Assembly: GCA_024207135.1 (NCBI GenBank)
Contig: CP042428.1
Coordinates: forward strand, 3,224,001 to 3,288,000
Length of the DNA stretch: 64,000 nucleotides
Direction of reading: 5' to 3'
Origin: Arthrobacter sp. C2
Lineage (GTDB): Bacteria; Actinomycetota; Actinomycetes; Actinomycetales; Micrococcaceae
The notes below the pieces were generated by a model. That model searched no databases, had not been told where the DNA came from, and saw only the letters and a program-made list of their open reading frames with translations. Positions 50,494 through 57,665 of this stretch are shown here, in pieces (the stretch's first letter is position 1; every line of letters begins with the position of its first letter). A program made the translations under genes and the position numbers.

Positions 50494-51014
50494 GGCGTGC
50501 GCCCCACGGGCCAAGGCCGACAGCCCGCCACTCGGAGCGCGGGGAGGTTGCGCGGGGAGCCAGATTCGTGCTCTCCCGCCGCGCGCAAGGTTCGGGTTTG
50601 CCGACCGGCCCCTGTGCCCGGCACGCCCCCAAGTTTGGTCGTGCCGAGTACACGGGCGATCGTCCTGAAACCGCCGCGGTTCCCGCTTGCGGATGCCAAG
50701 TGGAGCCTTGGTATTAAATTCCAATTGAGGAATATATCCATGGTCCGGACATCCCATGATGCCGCGGGGCCGAGGCTCTCGGTGGCCAGATGTCAAGATC
50801 GAGACGTCTGGCATTCGACCGCTGGCCGCCACCCAAATATCAACATAGCTGACGCGGCAAGCAAAAATGCCCGAACTTCCGGTTCTCGAACAACCCCGAA
50901 CAAAGCCGAATTGTCCGAACGGGTCGTCACAACGTTCCTAGTGGGGCAGCCGGATGCCTAAGATTGCAGGTGACGCATGGCGCGGGATGCGCGCCCGTGG
51001 CCGAAGAGGACCAA
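50494..51014. other. 521-bp intergenic region with dyad, no gene recognised
   Basis: No coding sequence seen. A dyad GCCAGATGTC (50785-50794) and GACGTCTGGC (50803-50812) has 9 of 10 matching positions around an eight-base spacer. A TAAGAT box at 50959-50964 is the most likely -10 of the downstream gene. An AT-rich patch lies at 50710-50738. No terminator with U-tract was found after ureD. Confidence 0.5.
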
Positions 51015-52133
51015 ATGACTGACCAACCCCGCGCAGTGGACGCCCCTATGGGTGCGTATGACGAAATTGCGCAGGACCTGCAGCAATTGCGCTTCGCCGC
51101 TGGCGACGTTTCCTACGCCGAGATCGTTCGACGCATTGCCGCCCACCGGGAACGCAACGGCGTGGACGCCGGCAATGCCCGTCCCGCCCGCACCACCGTC
51201 TATGACGCCTTCCGGACCGGACGGACCCGGGTCAACCCCCATCTTGTCGGCGAAATCGCCCGCGTCCTGGAGGCCTCCGAAATCGAGTCCGCACAATGGG
51301 AGGAACGGTGCCTTCTCGCCAGAAGGAACCTGCCAGCGGCACCGGCCGTGACGCCTGAACCGGACGTCTTGCCTGAACCGGCTCAGTCGGACCCTCGGCC
51401 CGCGGTGGTCGAAACGGCGGCTCCGGCCAATGGCCGGAAGTTTATGCTGGTTTTGGCATGCATCGGATTAAACGTCCTGGGGTTCACGCTCGTGGCCAGG
51501 TTGGGGCTGCCGCTCTACTTCGACATGGTGGGCACGGCGATAGCCGCAATCGCGCTTGGCCCCTGGGCGGGCGTGGCGGTGGGGTTGTCAACGAACGCCA
51601 TTGGCCTGGGCATCACCGACTCCTCGTCGATTGCCTTCGCGCTGGTCAACGTCGTCGGCGCCCTGGTGTGGGGGTACGGGGCACGCAGCCTCCGGCTGTG
51701 CCGGACCTTCCCCGGATACCTGTTGCTCAATGTCCTGGTCGCCCTCAGCTGTTCGGTGGTCGCAACCGCGTTGCTGCTCCTGCTGTTCAACGGCGGAACC
51801 GGCCACGCCTCGGAGCACACGACCCGGAACCTCGCCCAGATGGGCAATCCCCTGTCCGTGGCCGTCCTGGGATCGAATGTGGTTCATTCGTTGGCCGACA
51901 AACTGCTGACCGGCTTCATTGTCCTTGGCGCGCTGGGTGCCGTGCGGCGATGGATCGAGGTTCCGTTCTACGACAACCTGAGTGCGGACGTGATGCTCCA
52001 CGTAAAGGCGATCGGCAACCCCGTCCGCGGTGCCGGGCATGGTTCCCGCCCATTGCCCGCCAACCTGGCGGTCAATGGGCCGGTGCCCGGGACCCGGAGG
52101 GGCTTCTCGAAACAGGCCCCCGATTCACCGTGA
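51015..52133 (+). CDS. HTH-ECF-S-like membrane protein, candidate one-component membrane regulator
   Basis: A 372-residue protein with an unusual composition. Residues 1-95 resemble the small actinobacterial HTH/XRE-like N-termini: DLQQLRFAAGDVSYAEIVRR, ARTTVYDAFRTGRTRVNPHL, GEIARVLEASEIESAQWEER. A Pro/Glu linker follows, then five to six hydrophobic segments (about 135-310): FMLVLACIGLNVLGFTLVAR, LPLYFDMVGTAIAAIALGPW, AGVAVGLSTNAIGLGI. This core resembles S components of ECF transporters, with no ATPase or T component nearby. I suggest a membrane-embedded ligand sensor that regulates DNA directly; this is inference. ATG 51015 has AGAGGA upstream; in-frame GTG 50970 and TTG 50964 are alternatives. 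Confidence 0.6.
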   Translation: MTDQPRAVDAPMGAYDEIAQDLQQLRFAAGDVSYAEIVRRIAAHRERNGVDAGNARPARTTVYDAFRTGRTRVNPHLVGEIARVLEASEIESAQWEERCLLARRNLPAAPAVTPEPDVLPEPAQSDPRPAVVETAAPANGRKFMLVLACIGLNVLGFTLVARLGLPLYFDMVGTAIAAIALGPWAGVAVGLSTNAIGLGITDSSSIAFALVNVVGALVWGYGARSLRLCRTFPGYLLLNVLVALSCSVVATALLLLLFNGGTGHASEHTTRNLAQMGNPLSVAVLGSNVVHSLADKLLTGFIVLGALGAVRRWIEVPFYDNLSADVMLHVKAIGNPVRGAGHGSRPLPANLAVNGPVPGTRRGFSKQAPDSP

Positions 52134-52178: not shown

Positions 52179-52883
52179 TTAGGCGCGCCCGGTACGATCT
52201 CCTGCCCGGTTGATCCCCGCCAGGTCCAGCATCCTGTCGGCGACCCCCGACAGCGCGGCGGTGTCGTGCGAGGCGATGAGGACCGCGGCCCCTGCTGCGG
52301 CACGGTTCGCCAGCATTCCCAGGACGGCAGCGGTGTTTTCGGAATCAAGCTGGGCCGTGGGTTCGTCGCAGAGGAGCACGTCGGGGTCCAGTGCCAGGGC
52401 GCGGGCCACCATGGCCCGCTGGAGCTGCCCGTCCGAGACCTGGTGCGGGTAGCGGTGCAGGAGTTCCGGATCCAGCTGCGCCAGTTCGGCCAATTCGGCC
52501 AGGCGTCCGGCGTGGCGCCGCGGATGCGGACGCCACCAGCCCTCGCGGAAGGACAGCGGCGCGCTAATCAGGGCATCGAGGCGCATTCGCGGATCGGCCG
52601 CTGCCCGTGGTGACTGCAGCACCACGCCCACGGATCGGCGCACCTCCCGCGGCACCGGGGCGCCGGGGGCAAAGCCCCGCCCGTTGATGAGCACGGTTCC
52701 CGCATCCGCGGGCACCATCAAGGCGGCAATGCGCAGCAGCGTCGACTTGCCGGCAGCCGACGGGGCACGGAGCCCCACCATTTCCCCCGCGCCCACGGCC
52801 AGGTCCACCCGGTCCAGCAGCTTCCCGGCCGCCTGGTCGGCACCGGGGTGCGTGAAAGCGACATCCCTCAGCTCCAGGCTCAT
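52179..52883 (-). CDS. ABC transporter ATP-binding protein (Opp/Nik F/E-type)
   Basis: A 234-residue ATPase. Walker A APSAAGKSTLL is slightly unusual (APSAAGKS), the signature is QVSDGQLQRAMVARALAL, and Walker B is VLLCDEPTAQLDSEN. Oligopeptide/nickel importers have two distinct ATPases; this is the shorter, second one. It starts within the stop of the fusion gene (ATGA at 52880). The usual C-terminal peptide-type extension is absent. Confidence 0.85.
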   Translation of the reverse strand: MSLELRDVAFTHPGADQAAGKLLDRVDLAVGAGEMVGLRAPSAAGKSTLLRIAALMVPADAGTVLINGRGFAPGAPVPREVRRSVGVVLQSPRAAADPRMRLDALISAPLSFREGWWRPHPRRHAGRLAELAELAQLDPELLHRYPHQVSDGQLQRAMVARALALDPDVLLCDEPTAQLDSENTAAVLGMLANRAAAGAAVLIASHDTAALSGVADRMLDLAGINRAGDRTGRA

Positions 52884-54523
52884 GCGGGGGCCCCCAGCAG
52901 CATGCCGGTCTCCGGATGCGCACTGTCGCCCAGCACCTCGGCGGCGGGTCCGGAATCGACGACCCGCCCGTGGCGGAGCACCACCACGTGGTCGGCGAGA
53001 CGGCGGGCCAGCTCGAGGTCGTGGGTGACCATGACGACGGTCGTGCCCGCCGCAGCCCGGGACCGCAGGAGCGTTTCGATGTGGCCAACGGTGTCGGCAT
53101 CCAATGCGCTGGTGGGCTCGTCCACCAGCAGGATCCGTGACTCCACGGCAACGCCCAGCGCCAGGGCCACGCGCTGGGCCTGCCCGCCGGAGAGCTCGTG
53201 GGGGTGGCGCCCGGCCAGCGCGCCGTCTACGGCTGCGGCCTCGAGCGCCGCCAGGACATCGGCGGAGGACCCAGGACGCCCGGAGGCCCGGAGGGTCTGC
53301 CGCATCTGCGCGGCAACCCTGCGCACCGGGTTCAGCGCTGTGGCGGCCGAGCCCGGCACCAGCACGGTGCCGGTGCCCCGTGCGGCGGCCAGCCCTGCCG
53401 CATCCAGTGTCCGCCCGTTGATCACGATGTTTCCCGTGAAACGGGCACCGGCCGGCAGCAGCCCGACGAGCGTCCGCAGCAGCAGGGACTTGCCTGCCCC
53501 CGAGGCGCCCAGGATGACATTGATGCACCCGGCCTCGGCCCGGAAGTCGATTCCCTTGAGCACCAGCGTGCTTGCCCGCGGGTCGGTGGTCGAGGGGAGC
53601 CGGAGGTCCAAGCCGGAAACCAGGATCGCCGGACTGCCGGGGGCATGGTCCGAGGCGGCGTGGGTGGCCGAAGCTGCCGGCGAAGCGGCCGTGCCGGTGC
53701 AGGGGCCTCGTCCGAAGAGCCTGGACAGCCGGCGGCGCCGGGAGGTCCCCGCGGTGTCGATGAGCGAAGCGGCGCACCAGCTGACCAGCACCAGCAGCCC
53801 GGCGGGGAAGGCCAGCAGCCACCAGGCCCCGGCCAGCAGCCCGCCGCGGGCATCCTCCAGCAGCAGGCCCAGCGATGCGGATTCGGGCGGAAGCCCCACC
53901 CCCAGGAAGGAGAGCGAGCTCTCATGCCAGATGGCGTGGGGCAGCTGCAGCACCAGGGCGATGGCGGCCTGCGGCGCAACGGCGGGAACCAGGTGGGTGC
54001 ACCAGATCGCTGCCGCCGGGGCTCCGGAGGCACGGGCCAGCTGCACGTAGTCAGCGGTGCGTTCGGCGAGCAACCGCGAGCGCACGATCCGTGCGACCTG
54101 CGTCCAGTGGGTCAAGGCAATGGACAGCACGATCGCCCACCATTGCCCGCGCCACAGGGCCACGATGACCACCGCCAGCAACAGGTGCGGCAGGGCGTTG
54201 GTCGTGTCCACCAGGCGCATGGCCAGGCGGTCAACGATCCCCCCGCGCCAGGCGGCCAGCAGCCCCACGCCCACACCGAGCGCCGTGGAGAACACCGAGG
54301 CGCCCAGCGCCAGGAGCAGGGACATGCGCAGGCCCTGGGCCGAACGGATCCAAACGTCCCGGCCCAACTGGTCGGTGCCGAAGAAATGCTCGGGGGAGGG
54401 CGCCCGGAGCACCGCGGACAGGTCCACCGCGCGCGGGTCCAGGGGTTGCAGCCACGGAACCAGCACGGCGAAGGCGAGGACAATCCCCAGCAGCACCACG
54501 GGAAGCGGGCGGGGCCTAGACAT
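52880..54523 (-). CDS. ABC importer permease-ATPase fusion (DppC/NikC plus D-type ATPase)
   Basis: A 547-residue fusion. Residues 1-270 form the DppC/NikC-type permease (FFGTDQLGRDVWIRSAQGLR, ALPHLLLAVVIVALWRGQWW, WHESSLSFLGVGLPPESASL). A linker rich in Ala/Ser/Thr (about 275-310) joins a full ABC ATPase with Walker A LGASGAGKSLLL, the signature ELSGGQAQRVALALG, and Walker B ILLVDEPTSALDADT. Separate genes are normal in this importer family. It overlaps the DppB-type gene by eight bases (ATGTCTAG). Confidence 0.85.
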   Translation of the reverse strand: MSRPRPLPVVLLGIVLAFAVLVPWLQPLDPRAVDLSAVLRAPSPEHFFGTDQLGRDVWIRSAQGLRMSLLLALGASVFSTALGVGVGLLAAWRGGIVDRLAMRLVDTTNALPHLLLAVVIVALWRGQWWAIVLSIALTHWTQVARIVRSRLLAERTADYVQLARASGAPAAAIWCTHLVPAVAPQAAIALVLQLPHAIWHESSLSFLGVGLPPESASLGLLLEDARGGLLAGAWWLLAFPAGLLVLVSWCAASLIDTAGTSRRRRLSRLFGRGPCTGTAASPAASATHAASDHAPGSPAILVSGLDLRLPSTTDPRASTLVLKGIDFRAEAGCINVILGASGAGKSLLLRTLVGLLPAGARFTGNIVINGRTLDAAGLAAARGTGTVLVPGSAATALNPVRRVAAQMRQTLRASGRPGSSADVLAALEAAAVDGALAGRHPHELSGGQAQRVALALGVAVESRILLVDEPTSALDADTVGHIETLLRSRAAAGTTVVMVTHDLELARRLADHVVVLRHGRVVDSGPAAEVLGDSAHPETGMLLGAPA

Positions 54524-55529
54524 CGCCCACCCGCGGATCAAGCAGCAGGTAGCAGGCGTCGGCCAGCGCGGACCCGGCAAAGACCGCCGCGCAGGTCAGC
54601 GCGGTCACCGCGGCCAGCAGCGGGAAGTCGCCGGCGGTCGCCGAGGACACCGTGGCCGAGGCCAGGCCCGGCCAGGAAAACACCGCCTCGATGAGCAGCG
54701 CCCCGGTGACCAGCTCGCCGAGCCGGGAACCCAGCACCGTGATGAACGGCAGCAATGCGACCGGAAGCACGTGGGTGCGCAGCACCGTGAACTCGCCGAG
54801 CCCGCGGCCGCGCGCGGCCAGCACCGCATCGGATTCCAGCGCTTCGAGCAGCGAGGCCCGCAGGTTCAGCACCAGCCACGGCAATAGGGTCACGGCCAGC
54901 ACTCCCACGGGCAGGACCAGGTGCAGGGCAAGGCCCTCGGGCGTGGGGTCGGCCCCTCCCGAGGAGGCGCCGCCGGCCGGCAGACCCAGCCCGATCGCAA
55001 AGACGGCGATGGCCACCAGGCCCAGGACGAAGGGCGGAATCGCCTGGGCAAGGTGCACCAGCCCCAGGCCGAGGGCGTCCACGGGGGAGCCCGGGCGCCG
55101 GGCGGCACCCGCCGCCAGCAGCACGGAGAGCGCAATGGCGACCATTAGCCCGAGCCCCACCAGCAGCGCGGTGTAGGGGAGGCGTTCGGAAACCACCTGG
55201 GCCACCGGCTGGCCGAAGAGCCGGGAGATTCCCCAGTCCCCGCGCAGGGCACCGGAAGCCCAGCGCCCCCAGATTGCGTACCAGGCGTCGTTGAGTCCCA
55301 GCCGGTCGACCAGTTGCGCGCGCGCCTCCGGGGTCGCGTGTTCGTATTGGGTGCCCATGTACAGGGCCAACGGGTTGAAGGGGGCCAGGGACGCGAGCCA
55401 GAAGACCGCCGCGGTGATTGCGGCCGTGGCCGGGACCCCCACCAGGGCCCGGCGTCCGAGCAGGGTCAGGACCTCGCCGGCACGCGAGCGGCGTCGTTTC
55501 GTGCCCGCCGTCGGGACGCGCGTGCTCAT
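54516..55529 (-). CDS. ABC importer permease, DppB/NikB type
   Basis: A 337-residue permease with about six membrane segments. The opening RALVGVPATAAITAAVFWLA and the family motif LFGQPVAQVVSERLPYTALL, plus RGRGLGEFTVLRTHVLPVAL (EAA loop), match DppB/NikB. It forms the channel with the fused permease-ATPase. It overlaps the binding-protein gene by four bases (ATGA at 55526). Confidence 0.88.
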   Translation of the reverse strand: MSTRVPTAGTKRRRSRAGEVLTLLGRRALVGVPATAAITAAVFWLASLAPFNPLALYMGTQYEHATPEARAQLVDRLGLNDAWYAIWGRWASGALRGDWGISRLFGQPVAQVVSERLPYTALLVGLGLMVAIALSVLLAAGAARRPGSPVDALGLGLVHLAQAIPPFVLGLVAIAVFAIGLGLPAGGASSGGADPTPEGLALHLVLPVGVLAVTLLPWLVLNLRASLLEALESDAVLAARGRGLGEFTVLRTHVLPVALLPFITVLGSRLGELVTGALLIEAVFSWPGLASATVSSATAGDFPLLAAVTALTCAAVFAGSALADACYLLLDPRVGDV

Positions 55530-57154
55530 GGTTTCGGGACCCATTGGCCGATCTTGACCCACGGGCCCCACGCGGTGCCGTGGTCGTGGGGTTCGAGCAG
55601 CGTCCCGGTGCCGGTCCAGGCCTCGGAGACGGAGGTGCGCTGGATGTAGGTGTGGTCGATGAACGCGAGCAGCACCATGGATGGGTCCTCGACGTAGCGG
55701 CGCTGAACCTCACGGTAGGCGGCGGCGCGTTTGGTCTCATCCAGGGTGGTGCGCCCGGTTTCCAGGGCCCGGTCCATGGCCGGGTCGGCGAACCTGCTCG
55801 GGTTGTCGTAGTAGGCGCCGGCCGCCGGGTAGGAGGAGTGCAGCATCTTGTACAGCTGGGTGTCCACGTCGTAGGGGGTGTCGCCGCCGCCGAGCATGAT
55901 CGCATCGGTGCCCACCCGCGGCTCGGCCATCTCGAAGGTTGCTGCCTCGACCGGAACGTCGATGCCCAGCTGCTTCATCTGGGCGGAGAACGCCAGGGAC
56001 ATGTCCCGGCGCAGCTGGTCCCCGGGGTTGTACATGAGCGTGAACGCGGCAGGGGTCCCGTCCTTGGAGCGCATGGAGTCAGCTTCGAGAACCCATCCGG
56101 CCTCGTCCAACAGTTGGGCGGCGCGGGCCGGGTCGTGGGCAAAGACGGCCGCGGGGTCGAAGGCATCCCCGTACTCGGCGGGAACAAAGGTGTGGGCCGG
56201 GCGCCCGGCGCCGGCCAGGACCCCGTCGACCAGGCCCTGCCGGTCCACCGCAAGGTTCAGCGCAAGGCGCACCTTCGGGTCGGACGTCAGCGGGTTGTCC
56301 GCCGGCAGGGAGAGTCCGCGCCAATCCGCGGAAGTGGCCGTCACCTGCTCGAAGGCCGTATTGGCCTCGAAGGTGGCCGCCAGGCGCGGGGGCAGCACGG
56401 TGCCGTCGAATTCCCCGGCCAGCATGCGCTGGGCGCGGGCGTTGTCATCGGGGGCCGCCTCATAGGTGACGCGCTTGAGCGCGGCCTCGCCGTCGCGGTA
56501 TTCCGCGTTGGCCACCAGGACCAGGCGCGAGGGGCCGATCGAATCCACCAGGTAGGGTCCGGTGCCCACCGGTGTCCGGTTCAAGGCCGATTCCTCGACC
56601 CGTTGTCCGGGCTCGATGGCTTCGGACGGGGCGATGCCGATGAGCATCGCGGTCTTGAACGAGACCTGGGATTCGCGCAGCGTGAATTCGACGGTGTGCG
56701 CATCCAGGGCCTTGACGTCCACGACGTTTGAGAGCGTGCCGATGATCGGCGAGGCGCTCGCCGGATCCATGATGGCCTGGTAGCTTGCCACGACATCCGC
56801 GGCATCAAAGGCGGTTCCGTCGCTGAACCGGGCGTCGTCGCGCAGCGGGACCGTCCACGTGCGCGCATCGGCGGAAACGGTTGGTTCGTCCGCTGCCAGC
56901 AGGGGCGTGATCCGCGGCAACCGGTCGGGGGAGCCGGTGAGGGTGTAGAGGGATTCGTTGATCTTGCCCGTGCCGTTGTTGTCGAATCCGGCCAGCGGAT
57001 TGAGCGTCTCGGGAAGGGCCGCGGTGAGCAGGGACAGCGCGGGCTGGGCGGGCTTCGCGCCGCTGGTCCCGGGAGCCGCAGGTGCGCAACCGGTGCCGAC
57101 CAATAGAATGGAGGTAAGAACGGCCAGCGTCGTCAGGCGTTGTGGATTTCGCAC
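55526..57154 (-). CDS. ABC importer substrate-binding lipoprotein (peptide/nickel, SBP family 5)
   Basis: A 542-residue solute-binding protein. The lipoprotein signal ends LLVGTGC, then the cluster-C type SBP_bac_5 fold: SLLTAALPETLNPLAGFDNN, RTWTVPLRDDARFSDGTAFD, NRTPVGTGPYLVDS, and a C-terminal lobe ending WGPWVKIGQW. SBP5 family members bind peptides, nickel chelates or siderophores; nickel is suggested here by the divergent ArsR gene and the urease operon 5 kb away. It heads the operon on the minus strand. Confidence 0.87.
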   Translation of the reverse strand: MRNPQRLTTLAVLTSILLVGTGCAPAAPGTSGAKPAQPALSLLTAALPETLNPLAGFDNNGTGKINESLYTLTGSPDRLPRITPLLAADEPTVSADARTWTVPLRDDARFSDGTAFDAADVVASYQAIMDPASASPIIGTLSNVVDVKALDAHTVEFTLRESQVSFKTAMLIGIAPSEAIEPGQRVEESALNRTPVGTGPYLVDSIGPSRLVLVANAEYRDGEAALKRVTYEAAPDDNARAQRMLAGEFDGTVLPPRLAATFEANTAFEQVTATSADWRGLSLPADNPLTSDPKVRLALNLAVDRQGLVDGVLAGAGRPAHTFVPAEYGDAFDPAAVFAHDPARAAQLLDEAGWVLEADSMRSKDGTPAAFTLMYNPGDQLRRDMSLAFSAQMKQLGIDVPVEAATFEMAEPRVGTDAIMLGGGDTPYDVDTQLYKMLHSSYPAAGAYYDNPSRFADPAMDRALETGRTTLDETKRAAAYREVQRRYVEDPSMVLLAFIDHTYIQRTSVSEAWTGTGTLLEPHDHGTAWGPWVKIGQWVPKP

Positions 57155-57222
57155 GTTTTGGGTTTGGGCCTTTCATCCGGGTCGCCGACGGGCAAACGGG
57201 ATGCGGCAACGCCCCTACTGTA

Positions 57223-57244
57223 CATCTGTCCAGGTGGACAGATG
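57223..57244. promoter_or_regulatory. 22-bp dyad operator between the SBP gene and arsR
   Basis: Arms CATCTGTCC (57223-57231) and GGACAGATG (57236-57244) are exact reverse complements, separated by AGGT. On the minus strand the dyad sits between TTCATC and TACAGT, spacer 18 bp, so an ArsR repressor bound there would block the importer promoter. This is typical of ArsR-type sites. Confidence 0.7.
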
Positions 57245-57311
57245 AAGGGTTCGGGGCATGGGTCCGGTGAGCTTGGGCACCAGCCCGCAACGAAGGGAAG
57301 GAGGGGACCAC

Positions 57312-57665
57312 ATGCCGGAAACGGAACACAGCAAGATCGGGGCGGACGCGGTGGCCGCCTCGGAGCCGAACATGCCCGACTGGATCGACGTCTTTGCCTT
57401 GGTTGCGGATGCCACGCGAATGAAGATCCTCATCGCCATGCATGCCGCCCCGGACTCCGCGGTCAGCCAGCTGGCCGCCGCCACGGCGCTGGGAGCGAAC
57501 ACCGTCACCCAGGCCCTGGCCACCTTGCACAAGGCGGGCGTGGTGAGCGTGCGTGCCGACGGCCGCTACCGCCGCTGGACGCTGACCCACCCCGAGGTCC
57601 ACCGGCTGCTGCACCAGATGCAGGCACCGCATTCGGAATTGCATCCCGAGCACCCGGATCACTGA
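57312..57665 (+). CDS. ArsR/SmtB family metalloregulator with His-rich C-terminus
   Basis: A 117-residue regulator. The winged HTH (VSQLAAATALGANTVTQALA, RYRRWTLTHPEVHRLLHQMQ) is followed by a tail with seven histidines from residue 93 on (H93, H97, H101, H107, H111, H114, H117), comparable to the alpha-5 nickel/cobalt site of NmtR. GGAAGGAGG precedes ATG 57312. It is divergent from the ABC importer with a shared dyad. Nickel or cobalt sensing is the best inference; zinc is not excluded. Confidence 0.8.
   Translation: MPETEHSKIGADAVAASEPNMPDWIDVFALVADATRMKILIAMHAAPDSAVSQLAAATALGANTVTQALATLHKAGVVSVRADGRYRRWTLTHPEVHRLLHQMQAPHSELHPEHPDH

Follow-up and report, generated by a model that had tools for sequence, protein, structure and literature searches.

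A candidate 'transceptor' in Arthrobacter sp. C2: an ECF S-type membrane core fused to a helix-turn-helix-like domain

Can a nutrient-binding membrane core of the type found in ECF transporters act directly on DNA? The question is raised by a gene on the forward strand (51015..52133) of the window, the whole 64,000-nucleotide stretch of contig CP042428.1 of Arthrobacter sp. C2 analysed here. Its 372-residue product joins a helix-turn-helix (HTH)-like domain to an ECF S-type core. The initial annotation had seen in it a single-protein membrane regulator acting on DNA, set between urease and nickel-uptake genes; the fusion and an operator-like upstream repeat speak for that regulator, and a link to nickel or urease was not supported. 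By chances a shade better than even, we take the protein to be a 'transceptor', in which an S-fold nutrient-binding core is tied to a DNA-binding domain and the promoter repeats are shared with NB-ARC regulators carrying the same HTH.

The fused membrane core and its stand-alone relatives

The gene was delimited as an open reading frame whose ATG at 51015 is conserved among near congeners; these retain it over an upstream TTG at 50964, an alternative start that would give 389 residues. A candidate -10 box, TAAGAT (50959..50964, forward strand), picked out by eye, lies within a stretch conserved among congeners. From the ATG the forward strand encodes an HTH_31-like domain (residues 12-103; 51048..51323), recognised by profile matches with its helices and an insert assigned by eye; a Pro/Ala-rich linker (residues 104-140; 51324..51434), of varying length among aligned relatives; a CD3073-type ECF S membrane core (residues 141-312; 51435..51950), identified from profile, alignment, hydropathy and tree; and a tail (residues 313-372; 51951..52130) that is alike in near congeners and elsewhere short or different in the alignment. 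Pfam and NCBIfam scans of the fusion protein reported no ATPase, T or kinase domain, and no SARP domain, NB-ARC or TPR. Profile matches and homologues bore out what was first described, an HTH-like domain joined to an ECF-S core that has no energising module, and the scans agreed that ATPase, T component and kinase domains were missing.

The core matched the NCBIfam family NF045596 (ECF_S_CD3073) over residues 146-307, model positions 4-165 of 174, at 73.9 bits (E 1.2e-20), under the curated cut-off of 180, which was also missed by a pair of ECF-linked relatives when each was scanned by itself (114.7 and 120.7). Every aligned row (28/28) matched CD3073, and with this sub-cut-off match the ECF-S-like character first proposed for the core holds. 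Other families scored under their cut-offs on the window protein: the NCBIfam folate ECF S family (E 1.8e-4), Pfam ECF_trnsprt (17.5 bits against 30.7), ODV-E18 and 5TM-5TMR_LYT (10 bits, E 0.64). A PDB search with a profile of 28 relatives returned four folate-type S chains (E 0.0035-0.0063). Hydropathy showed several hydrophobic blocks from about residue 143 to 310, by a method that cannot separate five from six helices; the topology given here is predicted.

Residues of the core have been kept in both settings. At 28 positions, among them N153, D170, W184, N194, N212, W219, S292, D295 and K296, identity was at least 85% in fused (n=56) as well as stand-alone (n=20) cores, the latter including L052, a broken fusion that was left out of the helix-1 motif counts (n=19). 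Positions specific to the stand-alone proteins include Y141, V146-P147-V148 and G157 in helix 1; the VPV motif occurred in 17/19 stand-alone cores and 0/56 fusions, the row of the fragment L068 having gaps in this helix. We read this loss as a transport-linked constraint that the fusions may have given up. The AXXXA motif, known from the part of PMC11109136 on S-component docking, was found in helix 1 of 9/56 fusions and 1/19 stand-alone proteins. Because it is rare in the stand-alone set too, it says nothing on transport here, and its loss is unusable as proof of non-transport.

A tree of 54 S cores (31 of the 56 fused, 12 of the 20 stand-alone and 11 paralogues; from the stand-alone rows, near-copies, the fragment L068 and L052 were left out) placed all 31 fused cores on one side of a branch with support of 100/99, in an unrooted tree whose bootstrap had not settled and whose long branches were flagged. 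Read most simply, this topology means that the fused cores arose once.

The stand-alone proteins have a different company. A pattern scan of species genomes yielded 38 loci: the fusions L031-L046, the fusion L052, broken across two frames, and 21 stand-alone S proteins, chiefly from Chloroflexi and Actinomarina. Beside the latter, on loci several of which are short contigs, we found two ABC ATPases (each at 20/21 loci), a CbiQ T component (19/21), a PNP_UDP_1 nucleoside phosphorylase (18/21) and a Q_salvage (queuosine-salvage) protein (10/21). In the flanks of 17 fusion loci, unlike these, neither a T component (0/17) nor a nucleoside phosphorylase (0/17) was present; ATPase homologues occurred at 5/17, and at four of these loci, those of the window and its near relatives, they belonged to the nickel-type cluster.

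These comparisons bear on the best of the alternatives, that the fusion is a transporting S component which shares a cellular ECF module and whose HTH adds regulation of its own gene. The genome has four CbiQ-type T genes that could supply such a module, the S-core residues are kept, and solitary transporting S components are mentioned in a section of PMC11109136. The 17 fusion loci, with no T gene in their flanks, argue the other way, as do the helix-1 VPV, Tyr and Gly lost from the fusions and retained by ECF-linked relatives; an extra cytoplasmic domain and linker might moreover hinder toppling. We therefore regard a transporter as unlikely, if the strongest competitor of the transceptor reading.

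The same neighbourhoods offer a guide to the ligand. All four phosphorylases that were scanned scored best with the uridine phosphorylase model, one over its cut-off (282.6 against 280.3), two just under and one at 241.9. At L191 (2728-8664) the Arthrobacter sp. C2 genome itself encodes another CD3073 S protein, with T and double ATPase genes after it; about 1.9 kb upstream of that S gene, with other frames between, lies a nucleoside hydrolase, above the cut-off of Pfam IU_nuc_hydro and far below that of the nearest NCBIfam model, RihA. Because of the nucleoside genes beside the stand-alone relatives and this second S gene, a nucleoside, perhaps uridine, is the first candidate and, through guilt by association, most likely the ligand of the fusion.

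Two further loci deserve mention. At L051 (11550-14649) four consecutive nucleoside phosphorylase genes stand behind one ECF operon, which suggests several related substrates. At L056 (13712-14692), in Actinomarina, a queuosine salvage protein is encoded near a stand-alone CD3073 S operon; a queuosine transporter is the subject of PMC11130926.

The N-terminal domain and the upstream repeats

Resemblance of the N-terminus to an HTH had been proposed from the start, and homologues strengthened it. On its own the window's domain matched Pfam HTH_31 weakly (E 0.072, 13.8 bits against a cut-off of 27), and 16/17 aligned homologous domains matched the same family at E up to 10, the best at 1.3e-4. 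Among five homologous domains from proteins other than S proteins, scanned alone, three matched HTH_31 and two did not; only that of the NB-ARC protein L102 exceeded the cut-off (29.3 bits against 27), the two further matches falling below. By eye, a long insert separates the pair of helices predicted to make up the HTH, and searches of structure databases gave no convincing resemblance of the N-terminal domain to solved structures. On profile evidence, we assign the first ~105 residues to a divergent HTH_31-like domain, for which we predict DNA binding.

Frame-by-frame reading of strong matches in the actinobacteria searched showed this domain mostly fused to an S core or to NB-ARC/TPR-like parts. 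NB-ARC was above cut-off in all three scanned proteins that share the N-terminal HTH, and the single one scanned by NCBIfam resembled HaaT and AfsR, below their cut-offs. These are three of 17 loci counted as 'STAND', which were sorted by absence of the S core and by eye; one of the 17, L095, is TPR-like with no visible NB-ARC part. L143, placed under 'other', could be a fusion that has been damaged, and L103 was dropped from the counts as occupying the same place as L093. In the HTH tree, fused and STAND domains did not separate cleanly: the tree needs two label changes, and a single change suffices in 16% of bootstrap trees. NB-ARC proteins headed by the same HTH include L080, L099 and L014 among others, some with the same upstream repeats.

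Those repeats were recognised from congener alignment and motif counts. Upstream of the congener fusion genes the alignment contains a conserved block with repeated CCGAACA units, represented in the window by the operator-like direct repeats TCGAACA / CCGAACA / CCGAATT / CCGAACG, at 9-10 bp spacing (50886..50921, forward strand). The initial annotation had placed a binding site elsewhere, at 50785..50812. An imperfect palindrome does exist there, but comparison by eye shows it only partly retained in L002-L004 and does not find it in L005-L008; we rejected it as operator, since it is not conserved through the genus and the conserved repeats lie at 50886-50921.

To count the repeat we used the consensus CCGRACR-N3-CCGRACR with at most one mismatch, on the coding strand within 300 bp upstream, measured at some loci from the gene start and at others from where the HTH match begins; its R positions were chosen after some of the 46 upstream regions had been viewed. 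Outside the discovery genera the repeat was present before 11/46 fusions and 4/18 STAND/other genes, against 23/2158 background windows, and three scrambled motifs gave 0/64 each. The remaining 35/46 fusions had no repeat within one mismatch, which leaves other lineages with a different site or no site at all. Among fusions retrieved once the motif was fixed the count was 6/22 against a background of 7/360 (p 2.4e-5), and among STAND/other genes 4/18 against 3/282 (p 2.9e-4); these p values are too small because related genes are not independent, and only the 22 fusions were wholly held out, the STAND unit positions having been listed before the motif was fixed. None of the 17 stand-alone S genes examined had the repeat within two mismatches.

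Among the 46 fusions an 11-bp period was also enriched (4/46), 9 bp weakly so (2/46) and 12 bp not (1/46). Looser chains of CGAAC/CGGAC at 9-11 bp preceded 14/46 fusions and 4/18 other genes, against 35/2158 in the background, and at L148 five or more units stand in an array.

Across whole genomes, the three-unit pattern was exact at one site in each of five congeners, before the fusion gene; eight other three-unit sites had 1-2 mismatches each, and the reversed control pattern gave five sites. The repeat occurred at 43 sites with at most two mismatches in the Arthrobacter sp. C2 genome, against 11 for the reversed control. All six other one-mismatch sites examined overlap mechanical open reading frames, which says little because one such frame overlaps the gene's own promoter site too. 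In the five genomes searched only the gene's own promoter has the exact site, and we make no claim of a wider regulon.

The best argument for the HTH as reader of the repeats is that they also precede genes with which the fusions have just the HTH in common. These repeats weigh, too, on a further alternative, that the N-terminal domain is a protein-protein adaptor common to NB-ARC STAND proteins which does not bind DNA, and the fusion a membrane partner in signalling or defence. The weak HTH signal, the long insert between helices and the presence of the same domain in NB-ARC proteins would all suit an adaptor. Against it stand the repeats upstream of genes of both kinds, fusion and NB-ARC, and the resemblance of the scanned NB-ARC relative to the regulator AfsR in its NB-ARC part. 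Moreover, the Arthrobacter sp. C2 genome has at least one match to the domain, with no NB-ARC partner (11 scored of 119 first-look candidates). An adaptor thus seems to us somewhat less plausible even than a transporter, and a DNA-binding domain remains our preferred reading.

Genomic distribution and the urease junction

Some match was present in 32/148 related genomes, that of Arthrobacter sp. C2 included. The fusion extended over most of its length in 10/15 congeners (own included) and in two genomes of another genus of the same family, and in G116, from the same order, both halves lie within one frame. At least five named genera have it; fusion loci come from Paeniglutamicibacter, Arthrobacter sp. 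AQ5-05, a Micrococcaceae MAG, Cryobacterium, Salinibacterium, Microbacterium and Nocardioides. The fusion is real, and it is older than the genus. The HTH domain was found in at least 25/394 genomes of the class and at least 44/147 genomes of one genus, probably Nocardioides to judge by the likeness of its fusions to L042 and L046; both tallies are lower bounds, with 11 or 29 scored of up to 245 first-look candidates.

The gene does lie, as first noted, between a urease operon and a putative nickel importer. Upstream is ureD (the urease genes were named by eye from translations), and downstream, on the other strand, a nickel-type ABC cluster with nickel (Nik) and oligopeptide families among its best matches, none of which reaches the curated cut-off; the fusion has the same position in other congeners. 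This nickel/oligopeptide-type cluster (52179-57665) has a permease and an ATPase fused in one open reading frame (52880-54580), and beside it a divergent ArsR/SmtB-like gene (57258-57665) scores 49.2 bits against an NCBIfam cut-off of 55.

A functional meaning of this setting was not supported by presence and absence. Among the 15 congeners, eight have fusion and urease, two the fusion without urease (one of these genomes being 88% complete), two neither, and three lack the fusion but carry both urease and the nickel-type cluster; presence of the fusion tracks neither cluster (against urease, Fisher p 0.56). In G013 and G008 urease, nickel-type genes and the ArsR-like gene are all present with no fusion at the junction. 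Beyond near relatives, no common neighbour that would hint at a regulon was evident in the flanks of 17 fusion loci, and a search for conserved neighbours, proposed with the original interpretation, found that fusions in other genera adjoin other genes. Apart from this, the urease-nickel junction of one fusion-less congener (L176, 4300-7200) contains other open frames, including one that by eye resembles an isochorismatase.

A regulator that senses nickel in the membrane and controls urease or nickel uptake would fit the place between ureD and the nickel-type cluster, yet we hold it to be very improbable and rejected it on presence/absence and synteny: the fusion does not track either cluster in the 15 congeners, both can meet without it, other genera give it other neighbours, the nickel-type cluster has an ArsR-like gene alongside (just below cut-off), and the CD3073 family is linked to nucleoside genes.

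Proposed mechanism and relation to known systems

It is fairly probable, in our judgement, that the protein works as a one-component membrane receptor in which the S core senses a ligand, the HTH binds the repeats of its own promoter and the ligand shifts transcription. The C-terminal core would sit in the membrane and bind a small ligand from outside or from within the bilayer; the likeliest is a nucleoside such as those processed next to the stand-alone relatives, with a uridine-like compound as first guess. The HTH, predicted to be cytoplasmic, would bind the tandem CCGRACR repeats, of 10-bp period, ahead of the fusion gene and might also use weaker sites in other places. The ligand, once bound, might then alter the position or pairing of the HTH domains, the signal passing across the linker, and hence transcription; such autoregulation may be of either sign.

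The protein combines known kinds, one-component regulators and S-fold receptors. CadC and ToxR are membrane-anchored one-component regulators in which, as proposed here, a cytoplasmic DNA-binding domain is tied to the membrane; they have a single membrane helix and a periplasmic sensor, as against the multi-helix, transporter-related core of the fusion. The CD3073 ECF S components (NF045596) have a homologous membrane core, with the 28 conserved positions in common; the stand-alone members found here are without an HTH, and mostly lie beside ATPases, a T component and nucleoside enzymes.

An S fold serving as receptor is also on record. In the pages of PMC11109136 that deal with receptors, Partipilo and Slotboom (2024) recognised, by structure prediction, the S-component fold in 5TMR histidine kinase receptors, sensors related to transporters as the fusion appears to be. 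Receptors of the 5TMR type are described there with kinase, GGDEF, MCP, phosphatase and other domains, whereas in the fusion an HTH precedes the core and the scans showed no kinase. None of the terms helix-turn-helix, HTH, DNA-binding and transcription occurs in the main text of that article.

On the DNA side, AfsR-like NB-ARC/TPR regulators offer a comparison: some carry the same N-terminal HTH and similar upstream repeats, but a nucleotide-binding STAND part takes the place of the membrane core. SARP regulators, in the portion of PMC10972967 devoted to their operators, likewise recognise direct repeats of heptamers, and a secondary operator described there has units of 10 bp; large SARPs have, per the same portion, a SARP domain instead of the HTH of the fusion. 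The initial annotation knew of no described system of this type, and our literature searches, which covered few subscription papers, concur in having found no DNA-binding S-fold receptor or regulator.

If the proposed reading is true, the protein would be an S-fold receptor that acts on DNA without a kinase, and one HTH module would have moved between two hosts, a membrane receptor and a STAND ATPase, with its operator kept. A tie to DNA would provide a very short route from a membrane ligand to a promoter, and a simple system in which ligand sensing by an S fold can be read by a reporter gene. The locus offers a concrete candidate operator, and the protein a ligand assay for CD3073, an S family labelled only putative by NCBIfam.
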